Assembly: GCF_000712135.1 (NCBI RefSeq)
Contig: NZ_JOOE01000002.1
Span: forward strand, 372,001-436,000
DNA from: Sphingomonas sp. UNC305MFCol5.2
GTDB lineage: Bacteria > Pseudomonadota > Alphaproteobacteria > Sphingomonadales > Sphingomonadaceae
Direction: 5' to 3'
DNA: 64,000 bases
Shown one piece after another: positions 2,908-9,914 of this stretch (the first letter of the stretch is position 1; each line of letters opens with the position of its first letter). Position numbers and translations under genes: made by a program. The notes under the pieces are model-generated. The model saw only the letters and a list, made by a program, of their open reading frames with translations. It did no database searches and was not told where the DNA came from.

Positions 2908-2915
2908 CTACATTG
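2908..2915. repeat. Target site duplication, left copy (CTACATTG)
   Basis: An 8-bp direct repeat immediately outside the left inverted repeat, identical to 5779-5786. The length agrees with the IS1595 family. Confidence 0.88.
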
Positions 2916-2939
2916 GGCGCCTATCCCCCTTGCATACGT
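2916..2939 (+). repeat. Left terminal inverted repeat of the IS1595-type element
   Basis: 24 bp starting GGCGCCTATCCCCC and ending GCATACGT. It pairs with the right end with mismatches only at positions 5, 14, 15 and 16. It lies 26 bases before the transposase ATG, so the promoter of the transposase probably overlaps it. Confidence 0.9.
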
Positions 2940-2965
2940 AGAACGTTTCGGGTATATGCTTGTGC

Positions 2966-3865
2966 ATGGCAAAGCAGATCACCACCGCGCAGTTCTTCCG
3001 GCTCTTCCCGAACGATGAAGTCTGCCTTCAGCACCTGTTCGATGTGCGGTTCGGTCAGGGCTTCGCTTGCCCCTCGTGCGAGCGCCCGTCGAAGTGGTTC
3101 CGGATCAAGGCTGAGCGCGCCTATTCGTGCCAGTGGTGCGGTCATCACCTGCACCCGACTGTGGGCACCCCCTTCGAGCAGACCCGCACGCCGCTGCAGC
3201 TTTGGTTCTACGCCATCCACCTGTTCACGACGACGCGCCACGGTGTCAGCGGCAAGGAGCTGGAGCGCCAGTTGGGCGTGACCTACAAGACCGCTTGGCG
3301 CATGGCGAAGCTGATCCGCGAGCATATGGCGGATGTTGATGGCAACGAGCCGCTAGGCGGCTTCACGAAGCAGGTTGAAGTTGACGAGACCTTCGTGGGC
3401 GGGACGTTCCAGCGCGGCACTCGCGGCGGTGATCCGGCAGAGGGGAAGACCATCCTGTTCGGCATGATGGAGCGCGGCGGCAAGGTTATCGCTGAGGTGG
3501 TGGCGAACCGTAAGCGCGGTACGCTGCTCCCGCTTCTCAAGGGCAACGTGAAAGCTCACAGCATCGTCCACACCGATGAACATACCGCCTATCTCACGAT
3601 CGCTGCGGAGGGCTTCTTTCACGAAACGGTGAACCACGGCGCCGGACAGTACGTCTCGGCCAAGGGCTCAAGCGTCAACTCGATCGAGGGTTTCTGGCGG
3701 CACCTGAAATGCTCGATCGCTGGCACCCACATCAGCGTTAGCCCGAAGTACCTTGGCCGCTATGCCAAGGAATTCGAATACCGCTTCAATCGTCGCAACG
3801 ATCCGGCTTCGATGCTTCCGGAGCTTCTTTCGACTTTCCGGCCATTGAGTTCAAAGTGCGGTTGA
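2966..3865 (+). CDS. IS1595-family transposase (ISXO2-like DDE)
   Basis: This 299-residue protein has an N-terminal zinc ribbon (CPSC at about 33-36 and CQWC at about 53-56) followed by an ISXO2-like transposase core. The acidic residues can be read in VDETFVGG, HTDEHTAY and SVNSIEGFWRHLK, the family form of the catalytic triad. The ATG at 2966 is preferred to a TTG two codons upstream. No frameshift or stop interrupts it, and with intact ends the element may still be active. Its 3' end is overlapped in antisense by a small gene belonging to the cargo side. Confidence 0.93.
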   Translation: MAKQITTAQFFRLFPNDEVCLQHLFDVRFGQGFACPSCERPSKWFRIKAERAYSCQWCGHHLHPTVGTPFEQTRTPLQLWFYAIHLFTTTRHGVSGKELERQLGVTYKTAWRMAKLIREHMADVDGNEPLGGFTKQVEVDETFVGGTFQRGTRGGDPAEGKTILFGMMERGGKVIAEVVANRKRGTLLPLLKGNVKAHSIVHTDEHTAYLTIAAEGFFHETVNHGAGQYVSAKGSSVNSIEGFWRHLKCSIAGTHISVSPKYLGRYAKEFEYRFNRRNDPASMLPELLSTFRPLSSKCG

Positions 3866-3953
3866 ACGCAGCTTCGTCGCCGGTTTCGGTTTCGCGATCC
3901 TTCGCGAACTCATCCAGTTTCCCGGCCTCACGGGCCTCACGCAGCGTTGTCAT
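3786..3953 (-). CDS. Small 55-aa protein of the transposon cargo, antisense to the transposase end
   Basis: A 56-codon open frame too short for usual gene callers. It begins MTTLREAREAGKLDEF, is highly charged and helical in its first 35 residues, and ends in a charged low-complexity tail (KSKEAPEASKPDR). Its start overlaps the end of the 137-residue gene by 17 bases on the same strand, as in a coupled operon. Its last 80 bases run antisense to the transposase 3' end. From memory, short proteins of this kind accompany other IS1595-type transposases, but no search was run. No signal peptide, metal site or known domain is visible. Function is unknown. Confidence 0.5.
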   Translation of the reverse strand: MTTLREAREAGKLDEFAKDRETETGDEAAFNRTLNSMAGKSKEAPEASKPDRCDD

Positions 3954-4350
3954 AGGCTAGCCTCACCGGGGTACGTGGGCGCTCCCGGATTGATACGACC
4001 ATCGACCTATGGGTCTTTGAACGCTGGTGCCACAACAAGCCGGAGGTGATTGCTACGGCCAAAGTCCCAACCGCAATCATGAGTGTGAGAAGACCCCACA
4101 TATCTACCTTTGTCGGGTCGGCTCGAAACTGGCTGAGGACCTGTAAGGCGGGAACCAAGGCGCCCAGAAAGGCCCCCACCGTGCATAGGAAAATCTCCAT
4201 GACCGGCTCTTTTCGCATCTCGCCCAACTTCTCCAATTCGTCGTCCGTGATATAGTGGCATAGCGCTTGCGGCGAAAGAGTGACCTCTGTCGTTTGAGCG
4301 CCTGAAGGCATCTGCATAACGCTACCGCTAGCGGGTTGTTCAACCGCCAT
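3937..4350 (-). CDS. Two-helix membrane protein, transposon cargo
   Basis: A 137-residue protein not recognised as any named family. It has a polar N-terminal region (about 1-50, including ITDDELEKLGEMRKE) and two hydrophobic segments (about 51-70 and 84-106) separated by a short polar loop. It ends in a basic tail (SKTHRSM, RERPRTPVR). Both ends are probably cytoplasmic with a helical hairpin in the inner membrane; this topology is inferred. The start overlaps the end of the zinc-ribbon gene by 11 bases, which suggests coupled translation. Codon use looks less GC-biased than in the flanking host genes. Confidence 0.65.
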   Translation of the reverse strand: MAVEQPASGSVMQMPSGAQTTEVTLSPQALCHYITDDELEKLGEMRKEPVMEIFLCTVGAFLGALVPALQVLSQFRADPTKVDMWGLLTLMIAVGTLAVAITSGLLWHQRSKTHRSMVVSIRERPRTPVRLAYDNAA

Positions 4351-4681
4351 CTGAGCCGTCCGTTTCAGCGTCGGCTATTCTCGCTTTTACGATATTCAGG
4401 TTAAAGAAGCGGACGAAACCGCACTCCTCACATGTCGTTGCGGTGAGCGGCTGATAGGTGCCGCCAAAAGCCGGTATGTTTGTCAGAACCTCAACGCGAT
4501 AGGTATTCTCTAGCACATAACTCAGCGGGCTTCCGCAGACAGGACAGCCATCGTTGGGGTCGCGCGCCTTGCGGTTAATGTGAGCGGTTATTTCGTTTAC
4601 TTCGTCCTTCGAGAGTTTAATCTCGGTGACTGCTGGCACATTTGATGCCTGCCCTTTTGTTTTATCGTCCTCGGTCCCCAT
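4340..4681 (-). CDS. Zinc-ribbon protein, transposon cargo
   Basis: A 113-residue soluble protein. It has a charged N-terminus with a helical stretch (KLSKDEVNEITAHINRK), then CPVCGSP (about 46-52) and TTCEECGFVRFF (about 83-94). The two CxxC pairs, 37 residues apart, look like a zinc ribbon with the usual CxxCG knuckles. No catalytic motif is visible. It lies between the 289-residue and membrane-protein genes on the same strand and overlaps the latter, so it probably works with them. A role in nucleic-acid or protein binding is only a guess from the fold. Confidence 0.65.
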   Translation of the reverse strand: MGTEDDKTKGQASNVPAVTEIKLSKDEVNEITAHINRKARDPNDGCPVCGSPLSYVLENTYRVEVLTNIPAFGGTYQPLTATTCEECGFVRFFNLNIVKARIADAETDGSDGG

Positions 4682-4775
4682 GGGCGTTGGTTAGCAATAG
4701 GCTTCCTACGGAGTCAATTTGGGTACGTGAGAGGAGGCAACCCTTAAGGGTCTTGCTCAAGTGCCCGCAACGGGC

Positions 4776-5645
4776 TCACGCAGCATCTTCAATCTCCCCT
4801 CCGAAATCCATGATGACGAGCCGCACGATCTGCCCGTTCTTATATCCTGCCTTGCCTTGAACGCGGATCGTCGCTTTGCGGTTCACAGCGTTGGCGTAAG
4901 GATTGTTCTCTTCTTCGGCCACCGGATCATCGACTTCGGCCAGCAAGTACCCGCTTCGCTCCGGGTGTTCCACGCTCAATTTGCGCGTATGGAATGTGAA
5001 CCCATCGGTGCGAAGAACGAATTCTTGCAGAGGGCCGAACTCCTGGGCGACGCCTGATCGAATCTTGTCCGCGTCATCATTATCAACGGTGATTGCTTTC
5101 TGCTTGTCAGTCTCAAACTTCACCCTCTTGGCGGTGCGGCCGACTGGCGCAACCGCCTGAGCGGCTGCTGGACCCAGCTTCTCCAAAACCGCACCCAGAA
5201 GCTGCTGTAAGCCCATCGCCTCTTCGTGGCGGCGTTCGTCCGTCCGATCGCTGGCCGCAATTTGAGCAAGCATAAGGTCAGCCATTTTCTCGACTGCCTT
5301 CTGCGCTTCGGTCTGCCGACCGCTGTAGTATGAGAAGACGGCCTGCACCCAGTTCGACAGCATCTCCGCGCCGTTTGGCCCGAATACCTGAATGCCCAGT
5401 TGGAGAACTGCGGCGCTCTCCTGAAGGAGAGCGGCGACCGTCACGCTTCCCGCGACTGGCTCGCCAGCCTTCAACACAAGGAAGGCGCGTTCCCCCCGCT
5501 TGGGCAGACGCTTTTGCGTGAGCGCAACCAGCATGTCCGAAATTATTCGGTCGAAGCCTTGAAGAGATTCGCCAAAGAACCGCATGTCGATGCGATGGCC
5601 GTCCGCGTCGCCGCCCTCGAACGTAATCTGAAAGCCGTCTGACAT
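4776..5645 (-). CDS. 289-aa cargo protein of unknown function
   Basis: First gene of the cargo operon. The ATG at 5645 follows a GGGGAGAG ribosome binding site. The protein has no signal peptide. The N-terminal part (1-120) looks alpha/beta, with a phrase FFGESLQGFDRIISDM and a hydrophobic stretch near 85-115. A long helical, Ala/Glu/Gln-rich middle (about 120-170, possibly coiled) follows, then a beta-rich C-terminal part ending VIMDFGGEIED. I recall similar uncharacterised proteins in other proteobacteria (DUF7946-like) but cannot confirm this. It is the largest cargo gene, so it probably defines the module. Roles in defence, regulation or host adaptation are all open. Confidence 0.7.
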   Translation of the reverse strand: MSDGFQITFEGGDADGHRIDMRFFGESLQGFDRIISDMLVALTQKRLPKRGERAFLVLKAGEPVAGSVTVAALLQESAAVLQLGIQVFGPNGAEMLSNWVQAVFSYYSGRQTEAQKAVEKMADLMLAQIAASDRTDERRHEEAMGLQQLLGAVLEKLGPAAAQAVAPVGRTAKRVKFETDKQKAITVDNDDADKIRSGVAQEFGPLQEFVLRTDGFTFHTRKLSVEHPERSGYLLAEVDDPVAEEENNPYANAVNRKATIRVQGKAGYKNGQIVRLVIMDFGGEIEDAA

Positions 5646-5754
5646 CCAAGCTCTCCCCCATCGGGAAGGCTAAGTCATTGTCCCCCATTAAGTCAAAAGA
5701 GGCGATTTGGCGGGTCATGGCCGAAGGCCATACCACCCCCTGCGATTCCGATTC

Positions 5755-5778
5755 ACGTATGCGGAGGGGATAGACGCC
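5755..5778 (-). repeat. Right terminal inverted repeat of the IS1595-type element
   Basis: Read on the minus strand it starts GGCGTCTATCCCC and ends GCATACGT, matching the left end at 20 of 24 positions. Confidence 0.9.
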
Positions 5779-5786
5779 CTACATTG
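5779..5786. repeat. Target site duplication, right copy (CTACATTG)
   Basis: Identical to 2908-2915. It ends 6 bases before the stop codon of the homocysteine methyltransferase gene, so the insertion just missed that coding region. Confidence 0.88.
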
Positions 5787-5792
5787 CCAGCG

Positions 5793-6749
5793 CTATCCTA
5801 AGTTTCGGGCCGGCCGCGCGTTCAGCGCCTGCGCAATCTCCGTGACGTGCCGCAGATCGCCGCCGCAACAGGCGCCGAATATGTTGAGCCAGGGCATCCG
5901 AGCGGCAAGCTCCGCGTAAAGCTGGCCCAGCTCCTTCGGATCGCCCGCATCCAGTTCGGGCGCTTCATCGAGCTCGGCATGGCTGCGGCGCGAGGCGTTG
6001 GCGCGAAGGCCACGAATTCGCCGTGTCCAGTCCGCGTCGTGCAGCACGCCGGAGAAATGATCGGGATGCGCGCAATTGACCATGAAATACGCAGTCGCGC
6101 CGCCGGTCTGCGCATCGACCGCGCGGATCGCGTCGGCGAGCGACTGGCCGTCGGGAAGCCGGCCGTCGGTTTCGACGGTGAAGGAGATGACGACCGGCAA
6201 GCCCAGCTTCGTCGCGGCCTGCACCAGCCCGGCCGCTTCGCTCGCCTGGTTGAAGGTGAGGCCGGTGACCATGTCGATCTCGGTCGGCGCCAGCCAGCCG
6301 AGCTGCTCGGCATAATAGGCCGCTGCATCCTCCGCCGAAATCTTGCGCTCGGGCCGATAGGCGTCTCCGCGCGGGCCGATCGTCGCGCTGAGGACGATCG
6401 GAGGGCCGCCCTCGAAACGCGCGCGCATGCCGCTCGCCAGCGCGACCGCGTCTTCGTTCACTGCGCGCAGCTCACCGGGACTCTGGCCGAGGTCAGCCGC
6501 CCAGTGCCGATGCGCCTTCCACGTCGTGGTATCGAGAACGAAGCCCGCGCCGGTCTCGCGGGCAAGGTTCAGAAAGCCTTCGAAATAACGCTCCACCGCC
6601 GCCCTGCCCGCGGCTTCGGGCAGCAGCGTGTGCGCGGCGAACTCGCGGATCTCGATCCCGTGGTTGAAGATCAGATCGGTTTCCAGACCCGCATCGGTCA
6701 GGAAAAGATCGCCGCCAAGCTGCGGCAATGCGTCTCTGTATCGGGCCAT
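5793..6749 (-). CDS. mmuM: Homocysteine S-methyltransferase family protein
   Basis: A 318-residue cytoplasmic enzyme of the betaine-homocysteine/S-methylmethionine methyltransferase family, which moves a methyl group to homocysteine to make methionine. It starts with a LTDAGLETDLIF segment (family DGG/DAGxxT region). It carries the three zinc-binding cysteines in VNCAHP (about residue 226) and GACCGGD (about 294-295). The length is normal. The methyl donor cannot be told from sequence; S-methylmethionine is the usual one for proteins of this size. The gene stands alone, and its 3' end lies 15 bases from the transposon. Confidence 0.88.
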   Translation of the reverse strand: MARYRDALPQLGGDLFLTDAGLETDLIFNHGIEIREFAAHTLLPEAAGRAAVERYFEGFLNLARETGAGFVLDTTTWKAHRHWAADLGQSPGELRAVNEDAVALASGMRARFEGGPPIVLSATIGPRGDAYRPERKISAEDAAAYYAEQLGWLAPTEIDMVTGLTFNQASEAAGLVQAATKLGLPVVISFTVETDGRLPDGQSLADAIRAVDAQTGGATAYFMVNCAHPDHFSGVLHDADWTRRIRGLRANASRRSHAELDEAPELDAGDPKELGQLYAELAARMPWLNIFGACCGGDLRHVTEIAQALNARPARNLG

Positions 6750-7586: not shown

Positions 7587-9914
7587 TTAGGCTGGAGGCC
7601 GCCCGAACGAGGGTGGGCGATCCGCCTTGGCGGTGCCGAAGCGCGAGGGCTGCTTGCCCATTTCGAAGACCAGCTCGCCGCCCTTCGCCAGATCGGCGTG
7701 GCTGATCCAGTTGCGCGTCCAGGGCTTGCCGTTCCAGCGCACCGACTGGATGTACGGGGCATCGGGGGCGTTGTTGCGGGCAACGATGCGTAGCGTCCTG
7801 CCCTGCCCCAGCCGCACCTCTGCCGCGTCGAACAGCGGCGAGCCGAATACATACACCGCGCTCACCGGATCGACGGGGTAGAAGCCCAGGGCGCTCAGCA
7901 CGAACCATGCGCTCATTTGGCCGCAATCGTCGTTGCCGATTTCGCCGTCGGGATCGGCCTTGTACATCTCGGTGCACAGACGGCGGATCATCGCCTGCGT
8001 CTTCCACGGCGCGCCGGCAAAGGCATAGAGATAAGCGACGTGGTGGTTGGGCTCGTTGCCGTGCGCATATTGGCCGACCAGCCCCGAAATGTCGGGCGGC
8101 GCGTTCTCGGGCAAGGTCGACGGCGCATTGAACAAGGCATCGAGCTGCTTCTCGAACGCCGCATCGCCGCCGAAATGCGCGATCAGGCCATGGACGTCGT
8201 GCTGGTTGAGGAAGGTCGCCTGCCAGCCATTTGCTTCGGTATAGTCGCGGTGCTTCTTGACGTCGTGGCCGAGCTGGACCGGATCGTAATTCGCCCACCA
8301 GCTGCCGTCTGAGAATTTTGGCTTGGCGAAGCGCGCCTGCGGATCGAGCACGTTGCGATAGTTGCGGCTGCGCTCGCGCAGCTTCTCGGCGTCGTCCTTC
8401 GCGCCCGCGGCGTCGGCGAGCACCGCCATCGCCCAATCGTCATAGGCATATTCCTGGGTGCGGCTGACCGATTCCCAGATCTTGTCGGCAGGGATGTAGC
8501 CGAGGTCGTAATAATAGCCGCGGCCGAGCGAGCCGTCGCTGTCCTTGAAATCGCGATCGAAGGCGCGGCGGCGGATATTGGGCCATGCCGCGGCATAATC
8601 GGCCTTGATGCCCTTGGCGTGTGCTTCGGCGAGCACCGACACCGAGTGCCAGCCGATCATGCAGCCGGTCTCGACGCCCTGGAGCTGCCAGACCGGCGGG
8701 CCATAGGGACTTTGCTGCGTTTGGCGGATCAGGTCGCGGGTGAACATCGCCGCGCGCTCGGGCTGGACGAGGGTGAGCAGGGGATGGAGCGCGCGATAGG
8801 TGTCCCACAAGGAATAGGTGCTGAACGCGGCCGTGTCGGCGGGCGCCTGATGTACCTCTCGGTCCATACCGACATAGCGGCCGTCGCGATCGGTGAAGAG
8901 CGTCGGCGCGAGGAAGCAATGGTAGAGCGCGCTCGCCATGATCGTGCGCTGGGCGGGCGTGCCGCCCTCGACGCGGACGGCATCGAGCTCCTTCGCCCAG
9001 GCGCGGCGCGCGGCGGTGGCGGCGCGGTCGAAGTCCCAGCCCGGCGCCTCGGCGGCGAGCGCGGCCTTGGCCCCCGCGACATCGACCGCCGAGATGCCGG
9101 TCTTGACGAGGATCGGCTCGCCGCCCGCCTCGTCGAAGAACAAGGCGACCTTGAGCTTGTTGCCGGCGACGACTTTCGCGCCCGCCGGTGCGGGCTTGTT
9201 GTCGTCGCCGAAGAACTGAACCCGGCTCGGCTTGCGCGAGAGCTGCATCGCGAAATGAATGTGCCGGCCCTTGGCCCAGCGATGTACCCGCCGGCTGCCG
9301 GTGAGCATGCCGTTCGCGTCGATCGCGAGCGAGGCCTGGTCGACGATGATGCCCTTGTCCCACACGTCGATGATCATGTGGGCGAAGTCGATCAGGATAT
9401 GCCCGGCGCCGGCGGGGAAATGGTAGCGGTGCAGGCCGGTGCGCTCGGTCGCGGTCAGCTCGGCGAGCACGCCGGATTCGAGTTTGACGCGGTAATAGCC
9501 GGGCTCGGCATGCTCTTCGGAGAAACGCTGGCGATAGCCCTTGTCGGGATCGTCGAGCTTGCCCGGATCGAGCTCGAGCGGCCCACGCGTCGGCACCACC
9601 AGCACGTCGAGCATGTCGCCGATGCCGGTGCCCGAGAGATGGGTGTGCGAGAAGCCCATGATCGACGTGTCGGTACGGTGATAGCCCGAGCATGCGTCCC
9701 AGCGGCTATTGTCGGTATCGGGGCTGAGCTGCACCATGCCGAAGGGCAAAGAGGCACCGGGAAAGGTGTGGCCGTGCCCGCCGGTGCCGATGAACAGGTC
9801 GGGCTTGCCGGCGGTGGCCTTCTGCACGCGGGCGAGCGCCGGCGCCGCTCTGGTCAAAGCGGCGAGCCCGGTGCCGGCGAGCAATTGGCGGCGATTTGCA
9901 GTGATCATGGTCAT
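7587..9914 (-). CDS. GH92 family alpha-mannosidase, exported
   Basis: A 775-residue enzyme of glycoside hydrolase family 92, calcium-dependent exo-alpha-mannosidases. An N-terminal twin-arginine-like signal (NRRQLLAGTGLAAL) points to export. Family signatures are GTGGHGHTFPGA near the N-terminus, SLWDTYRALHPLL in the middle, GNEPNHH at about 619 and GNDDCGQMSAW at about 660. The GNEP..HH form differs from the GNQP..QH of the two other GH92 proteins here, so the substrate preference may differ; alpha-1,2 linkages would be my guess. The start is the ATG that overlaps the TGA of the GH125 gene by one base (TGATG), which indicates translational coupling. It is the last gene of the block. Confidence 0.92.
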   Translation of the reverse strand: MTMITANRRQLLAGTGLAALTRAAPALARVQKATAGKPDLFIGTGGHGHTFPGASLPFGMVQLSPDTDNSRWDACSGYHRTDTSIMGFSHTHLSGTGIGDMLDVLVVPTRGPLELDPGKLDDPDKGYRQRFSEEHAEPGYYRVKLESGVLAELTATERTGLHRYHFPAGAGHILIDFAHMIIDVWDKGIIVDQASLAIDANGMLTGSRRVHRWAKGRHIHFAMQLSRKPSRVQFFGDDNKPAPAGAKVVAGNKLKVALFFDEAGGEPILVKTGISAVDVAGAKAALAAEAPGWDFDRAATAARRAWAKELDAVRVEGGTPAQRTIMASALYHCFLAPTLFTDRDGRYVGMDREVHQAPADTAAFSTYSLWDTYRALHPLLTLVQPERAAMFTRDLIRQTQQSPYGPPVWQLQGVETGCMIGWHSVSVLAEAHAKGIKADYAAAWPNIRRRAFDRDFKDSDGSLGRGYYYDLGYIPADKIWESVSRTQEYAYDDWAMAVLADAAGAKDDAEKLRERSRNYRNVLDPQARFAKPKFSDGSWWANYDPVQLGHDVKKHRDYTEANGWQATFLNQHDVHGLIAHFGGDAAFEKQLDALFNAPSTLPENAPPDISGLVGQYAHGNEPNHHVAYLYAFAGAPWKTQAMIRRLCTEMYKADPDGEIGNDDCGQMSAWFVLSALGFYPVDPVSAVYVFGSPLFDAAEVRLGQGRTLRIVARNNAPDAPYIQSVRWNGKPWTRNWISHADLAKGGELVFEMGKQPSRFGTAKADRPPSFGRPPA

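Follow-up and report, generated by a model that had tools for sequence, protein, structure and literature searches.

An IS1595-family transposon of 2,863 bp lies complete at positions 2916-5778 of a 64,000-nucleotide stretch of the genome of Sphingomonas sp. UNC305MFCol5.2 (RefSeq assembly GCF_000712135.1, contig NZ_JOOE01000002.1, positions 372,001 to 436,000 of the forward strand), hereafter the window, whose own coordinates are used throughout. It sits 5 bp from a box of LexA-consensus type, and we consider it somewhat probable that it represents a chassis with exchangeable cargo, the present cargo being a predicted membrane-linked, phage-derived conflict module.

A sequence-only reading of the window had described an intact IS1595-type transposon at 2908-5786. 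The element is real, and its 24-bp ends, perfect 8-bp duplication and unbroken transposase are all found in the sequence, as are the non-transposition open reading frames (ORFs) reported on the opposite strand; the proposed span, however, takes in both copies of the duplication in addition to the element proper. The features are as follows.

2888-2902, no strand: LexA-type box GAACGGAAGCAGAAC (GAAC-N7-GAAC; exact-pattern scan), 5 bp from the duplicated target
2908-2915, no strand: left copy of the target-site duplication, CTACATTG, perfect, 8 bp
2916-2939, plus strand: left terminal inverted repeat, GGCGCCTATCCCCCTTGCATACGT, 24 bp
2960-3865, plus strand: IS1595-family DDE transposase with zinc ribbon, 301 aa (TTG at 2960, ATG at 2966)
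3786-3953, minus strand: 55-aa chassis ORF, overlapping the 3′ end of the transposase gene in antisense, with homologues at the same position in relatives
3937-4350, minus strand: cargo, 137 aa, two predicted transmembrane (TM) helices, weakly SLATT-like, with a homologue in element L106
4340-4681, minus strand: cargo, 113 aa, CPVC and CEEC motifs, zinc-ribbon-like (sub-threshold zinc-ribbon matches only)
4776-5645, minus strand: cargo, 289 aa, DUF7946-DUF7947 by domain matches, predicted small beta-barrel C-terminus
5755-5778, minus strand: right terminal inverted repeat, GGCGTCTATCCCCTCCGCATACGT (reverse complement), 24 bp, matching the left end
5779-5786, no strand: right copy of the target-site duplication, CTACATTG, perfect, 8 bp

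The transposase matches PF12762 (DDE_Tnp_IS1595) with 126.4 bits (cut-off 27) and NF033547 with 194.5 bits (cut-off 75), its N-terminal zinc ribbon matches PF12760 (Zn_ribbon_IS1595) with 39.7 bits (cut-off 25.4), and the motifs VDETFVGG, HTDEHTAY and NSIEGFWRHLK are present. With its DDE domain, N-terminal zinc ribbon, terminal inverted repeats and 8-bp duplication, the element belongs to the IS1595 family, and the three cargo genes between its ends (3937-5645) place it among the passenger-carrying members, of which insertion sequences termed 'transporter IS' were reportedly described by Siguier and colleagues in 2009. A DDE transposase of this kind would move the element by cut-and-paste or copy-paste. 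Three of the four reverse-strand ORFs overlap or nearly so, and a 94-bp gap precedes the 289-aa ORF.

The element is present as one copy in its own genome, in which about 220 bp of its left flank are repeated elsewhere. The insertion target was a repeat of about 220 bp (approximately 2697-2915 plus 5787-5793), found in at least six copies in the genome and harboring CCAACC..GGTTGG palindromes together with the GAAC-N7-GAAC box. Five paralogous copies of this target (L154-L158; L numbers designate the loci analyzed, L001 being that of the window) are 69-75% identical and align unbroken over the junction of the joined flanks; since these genomic copies span the junction without interruption, the pre-insertion target is seen. 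The anatomy of the element, its duplication and its pre-insertion sequence are established. A clean empty site in relatives had been considered for the same use and was given up in favor of the paralogous copies, the ROK gene being present there and the right-hand neighbor missing. The sequence-only reading had named cargo at this locus in transposase-free relatives as the observation that would contradict it; no such case was met, all five element genes being absent from the stretches around the relatives' left-flank (ROK gene) matches (L135-L153), where synteny is weak because the right-flank gene does not stand beside the ROK gene. The genes flanking the element in the window resemble, by eye, those for a sugar transporter (137-1465), a ROK regulator (1509-2696) and a homocysteine S-methyltransferase (5793-6749).

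Related transposases were matched in 36 of 201 genus genomes (E 1e-30), 41 of 397 family genomes (1e-60) and 29 of 396 order genomes (1e-60), the three sets overlapping. Longer stretches were taken around 14 of the 40 genus places outside the own genome, 40 of the 44 family places and two plasmid places; 20 further weak genus places formed a control group, and the order search contributed 16 places, 14 of them new. The first round amounted to 57 loci, counting that of the window, at which a related transposase is encoded. At 45 of these, the TATCCCC end motif was found on both sides and the duplication, of 8 or 9 bp, was perfect, and two more (L035 and L039) were bounded through their inverted repeat and duplication, yielding 47 bounded elements with a TATCCCC-type end at least on the transposase side and a perfect duplication; two loci had other ends (L044 and L045) and eight were not boundable. 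The related elements are 1.6-3.5 kb long. Duplications of 9 bp were observed in L033, L106, L118, L120 and L208. In a tree of 69 transposases, the first-round sequences formed three groups, each set off by a single branch (with support values of 98/98, 100/100 and 100/99), with the control IS1595 group separate; the window's element belongs to group one. The outer six bases of the ends (2916-2921 and 5773-5778 in the window) differ from element to element, but those at either end of a given element agree, with 240 of 282 positions identical over the 47 elements, whereas 5000 within-clade shuffles averaged 166 and never exceeded 197; for this agreement, end homogenization or co-adapted recognition is a possible cause.

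The sequence-only reading had assigned all four reverse-strand ORFs to the cargo. This assignment was rejected for the 55-aa ORF, which travels with the transposase: tblastn revealed a homologue overlapping the 3′ end of the transposase gene in 14 of the 18 closest bounded group-one elements, and BLASTP added homologues in L101, L105 and L132, raising the count to 17 of 18. This ORF is thus part of the chassis, and the cargo proper consists of three genes. Its non-overlapping part shows a ratio of non-synonymous to synonymous differences (pN/pS) of 0.47, at a pS of 0.72, which is near saturation. Similar small ORFs connect 8 of 12 group-three elements to one another, with a weak link to group one as well; for 10 of 15 group-two elements, such links stay within the group. 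Because the group-two ORF, located at the same place, had no similarity to those of the other groups at E 1e-3, one origin for the small ORF of all three clades is, as far as sequence similarity goes, not shown. The ORF would be an accessory or a regulator of transposition. Ends, transposase and antisense ORF are likely to constitute a chassis that moves exchangeable cargo among sites of SOS type and other operators or palindromes.

The box at 2888-2902 fits, with either orientation allowed, the LexA motif GTTCN7GTTC published for Caulobacter (PMC12700426). Insertion sites were scored for the exact GTTC-N7-GTTC pattern, in either orientation, within 60 bp of the insertion point. Such a box was present at 10 of the 47 bounded elements (L001, L035, L036, L038, L102, L103, L108, L110, L116 and L125) compared to 13 of 4578 control windows (p 1.6e-16), and spacings of 3-6 and 8-12 bases gave 0-2 sites, only the 7-base spacing being enriched. 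The association was noticed in this set and then tested on 11 elements fetched afterwards, where three sites (L200, L201 and L206) carried a box compared to 4 of 944 control windows (p 1.2e-5), the frequency in control windows being 0.3-0.4%. A statistical association of these elements with exact GTTC-N7-GTTC boxes is established. Searches of an open-access library gave no description of it, and to our knowledge it is new, unlike passenger genes within the IS1595 family, which were already known.

Three elements (L102, L103 and L116) lie 66-80 bp from the start of lexA itself, the LexA repressor having been identified as such for L103 and by tblastn for L102 and L116; as judged by eye, the duplication at these sites reaches the -35 hexamer. 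Four others (L107, L113, L201 and L204) lie 65-77 bp from members of one regulator family (51-71% identical), which resemble LexA-like S24 proteins by eye only, a sequence search of the Protein Data Bank having given no match. The elements at these sites share about 64-81% nucleotide identity in BLAST pieces (i.e. differ by about 19-36%), a divergence that marks the insertions as separate events, and likeness of the flanks is confined to the lexA set and the regulator set. Over the 13 box sites of both sets, the box stands on the transposase side in seven and on the cargo side in six (one overlapping the duplication). The uvrA gene at L038 was considered as an SOS gene and dropped, its 3′ end facing the element. 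A retron-kind reverse transcriptase-like ORF was seen by eye near the insertion in the flanks of L038 and L125. As to other kinds of sites, L106 shows a partial match to a CCTGA..TCAGG palindrome site, and the other IS1595 group, with TATATAC-like ends, apparently has a recurring insertion motif of its own, flanked by GTCAAG (L173, L174, L175, L177 and L178).

The sequence-only reading had taken the cargo to be conserved, which is not shown: the set of four reverse-strand genes was met together only in the window, relatives with the same ends have mostly other cargo, and the genes also occur apart, outside elements. A family with the same ends and different cargo is established. The two-TM gene recurs in one other element, L106 (55% identity over 123 aa), with a different partner, and L106 in turn shares a 303-aa gene with L102 (57% identical) that is missing from L001; modules therefore mix. 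A 300-aa cargo family is common to L033, L093, L097, L104, L105 and L107, a gene pair to L032 and L098, a two-gene set to L040, L124 and L127, and a VapD/Cas2-like gene to L130 and L133, and most cargo ORFs found no partner. A single cargo superfamily was entertained, as the 300-aa cargo looked DUF7946-like by eye, and abandoned upon a profile comparison probability of 0.2%.

When cargo and flank windows of the same size were judged by one hydropathy rule, a predicted membrane protein was found in the cargo of 28 of 35 elements of clades one and two, in 32 of 126 of the flank windows (Fisher p 1.2e-8) and in none of the 12 clade-three cargos. That such proteins are enriched in the cargo of clades one and two, those closest to the window's element, is established. 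Pfam returned DUF4747 and Peptidase_M78 for group-one cargo, little for group two and, for group three with L044 and L045, DUF5343 twice and, among other families, single matches to DUF433, MerR, SLFN_AlbA_2, N6_Mtase, Methylase_S and Cas2. PADLOC models matched group-one cargo (PDC-S42 in four proteins; capP, RmrA, PDC-M69B, PD-Lambda-2_B and RexB in one protein each) and that of group three with L044 and L045 (BstA, type I methylase and others). L044 is a 4.3-kb element of the other IS1595 group with type I methylase-like and probably BstA-like cargo genes.

Turning to the cargo of the window, the DUF7946 gene turned up in three of the 201 genus genomes and six of the 397 family genomes, the own genome counted in both, and six stretches fetched around its other occurrences (L057-L062) were devoid of a related transposase. 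In one of them, L061, it stands beside a repressor-like gene in what looks by eye like a prophage-like arrangement. The DUF7946 protein matches phrog_5147 (E 1.3e-23) and the 303-aa protein of L106 matches phrog_4506 (E 2.2e-27); both thus have phage relatives. The 113-aa Cys4 protein matches phrog_4293 at E 1.4e-4. The two-TM gene also occurs at three transposase-free loci (Qipengyuania, Altererythrobacter and a Sphingopyxis metagenome-assembled genome), in two of which a Cys4 ORF adjoins it. In Qipengyuania vesicularis (L049, about 7676-8366), the Cys4/two-TM pair, with no transposase, is flanked by fabG-like and dnaN-like genes by eye. Of 16 two-TM homologues, five gave a hit to SLATT_2 with an E value of 0.1 or below, the lowest being 0.0099. 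A viral-contig scan with the two-TM alignment and a plasmid tblastn with two cargo proteins gave nothing useful.

LexA-box proximity would reflect target choice, through recognition of promoter DNA that is open, bent or bound by LexA, and the finding of boxes on either side of the element suggests target choice over selection after insertion. Several observations weigh against this. An exact box is absent within 60 bp at 45 of 58 sites; the enrichment is smaller when one mismatch is allowed (16 of 47 versus 6.3%, and 4 of 11 versus 6.4%); four elements (L033, L118, L120 and L208) are inserted instead into the loop of a palindromic CCTGA..TCAGG repeat; and the other IS1595 clade had a box at 0 of 13 sites, too few for a firm contrast. 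In the window itself, the box lies inside the repeated stretch, with at least five further copies in the genome, so that what attracts the element there may be the repeat and not LexA. An ordinary passenger-carrying IS1595 element preferring AT-rich intergenic promoter DNA, and hitting LexA boxes merely as promoter content, would fit the 70% A+T of the duplications (42% in the flanks) and the location of 41 of 58 insertion points, versus 652 of 4200 random points, outside ORFs of 150 or more residues. We hold it to be unlikely, in that exact boxes occur in just 6 of 232 promoter-like windows (upstream of ORFs) versus 13 of 58 sites of both sets (p 2.5e-9; taking the three lexA sites as one leaves 11 of 56, p 1.8e-7) and the 7-base spacing alone is enriched. 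Still less credible is that the association arose after insertion, elements near SOS promoters having been kept since their transposase or cargo turns damage-inducible: the window's box is indeed at the transposase end, 57 bp from the start of the transposase ORF, but the near-even split of boxes between the two sides implies no fixed orientation, and internal boxes were found in just 5 of 58 elements.

The function of the cargo is the weakest part of the reading we favor. The window's cargo most likely consists of phage-derived genes acting at or through the membrane, in exclusion or abortive defense; the DUF7946 protein would sense something cytosolic and the two-TM protein would act at the membrane. 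Here too the contrary results are several: the window's five proteins matched no PADLOC family at E up to 1, upon which a known defense system was discarded as the identity of the cargo; the two-TM protein reached 14.1 and 13.4 bits with the NCBIfam SLATT models (cut-offs 40 and 41); PADLOC yielded nothing for 21 clade-two cargo proteins; and 32 flanking ORFs, used as a control, matched as well, to 24 families. Because flanking ORFs match PADLOC families too, enrichment of the cargo in defense families is not claimed, nor is it shown by these comparisons, and the matches in relatives were dropped as support for defense. A purely selfish passenger role for the cargo, or one as an element-stabilizing toxin-antitoxin pair, in either case unrelated to phage defense, would agree with the free gain and loss of cargo and with the toxin-antitoxin-like domains of clade-three cargo (e.g. 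DUF433 with MerR, and the Cas2/VapD-like match). We find this rather doubtful for the window, whose cargo matched no toxin or antitoxin family in Pfam-type and PADLOC scans and whose DUF7946 gene also stands alone elsewhere.

A wider proposal, which we advance tentatively as possible though short of probable, is that a sphingomonad transposon lineage may home to LexA-controlled (SOS) promoters, including that of lexA, by recognizing the operator or bound LexA, and spread interchangeable membrane-linked immunity cargo. Were target choice real, a DDE transposon would read an SOS operator as a landing signal, tying the placement of a mobile element to the damage response of its host and making host-factor-guided targeting testable in a small system; the slot from the antisense ORF to the right end would then be a place to seek new small defense or exclusion genes.

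Compared to known passenger-carrying IS1595 elements, the elements described herein are alike in their DDE transposase with zinc ribbon, inverted repeats, 8-bp duplication and genes between the ends; they add exchangeable reverse-strand cargo, a shared antisense ORF of 55-66 aa, membrane-rich cargo in two clades and the association with LexA-type boxes. As small mobile units with a cargo of one to four genes, they resemble passenger transposons of defense islands or with toxin-antitoxin genes, and some relatives match BstA, type I methyltransferase, RmrA, capP and RexB models; the window's own cargo, matched by no PADLOC model, differs. Like SLATT two-TM effectors, the two-TM protein is short and has a pair of neighboring TM helices; it differs from them in its score (14.1 bits versus a cut-off of 40). 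Finally, the four elements in CCTGA..TCAGG loops resemble insertion sequences that target repetitive extragenic palindromes (REP), whereas most sites in the present family are not palindromes of this kind and LexA-type boxes are hit more often.

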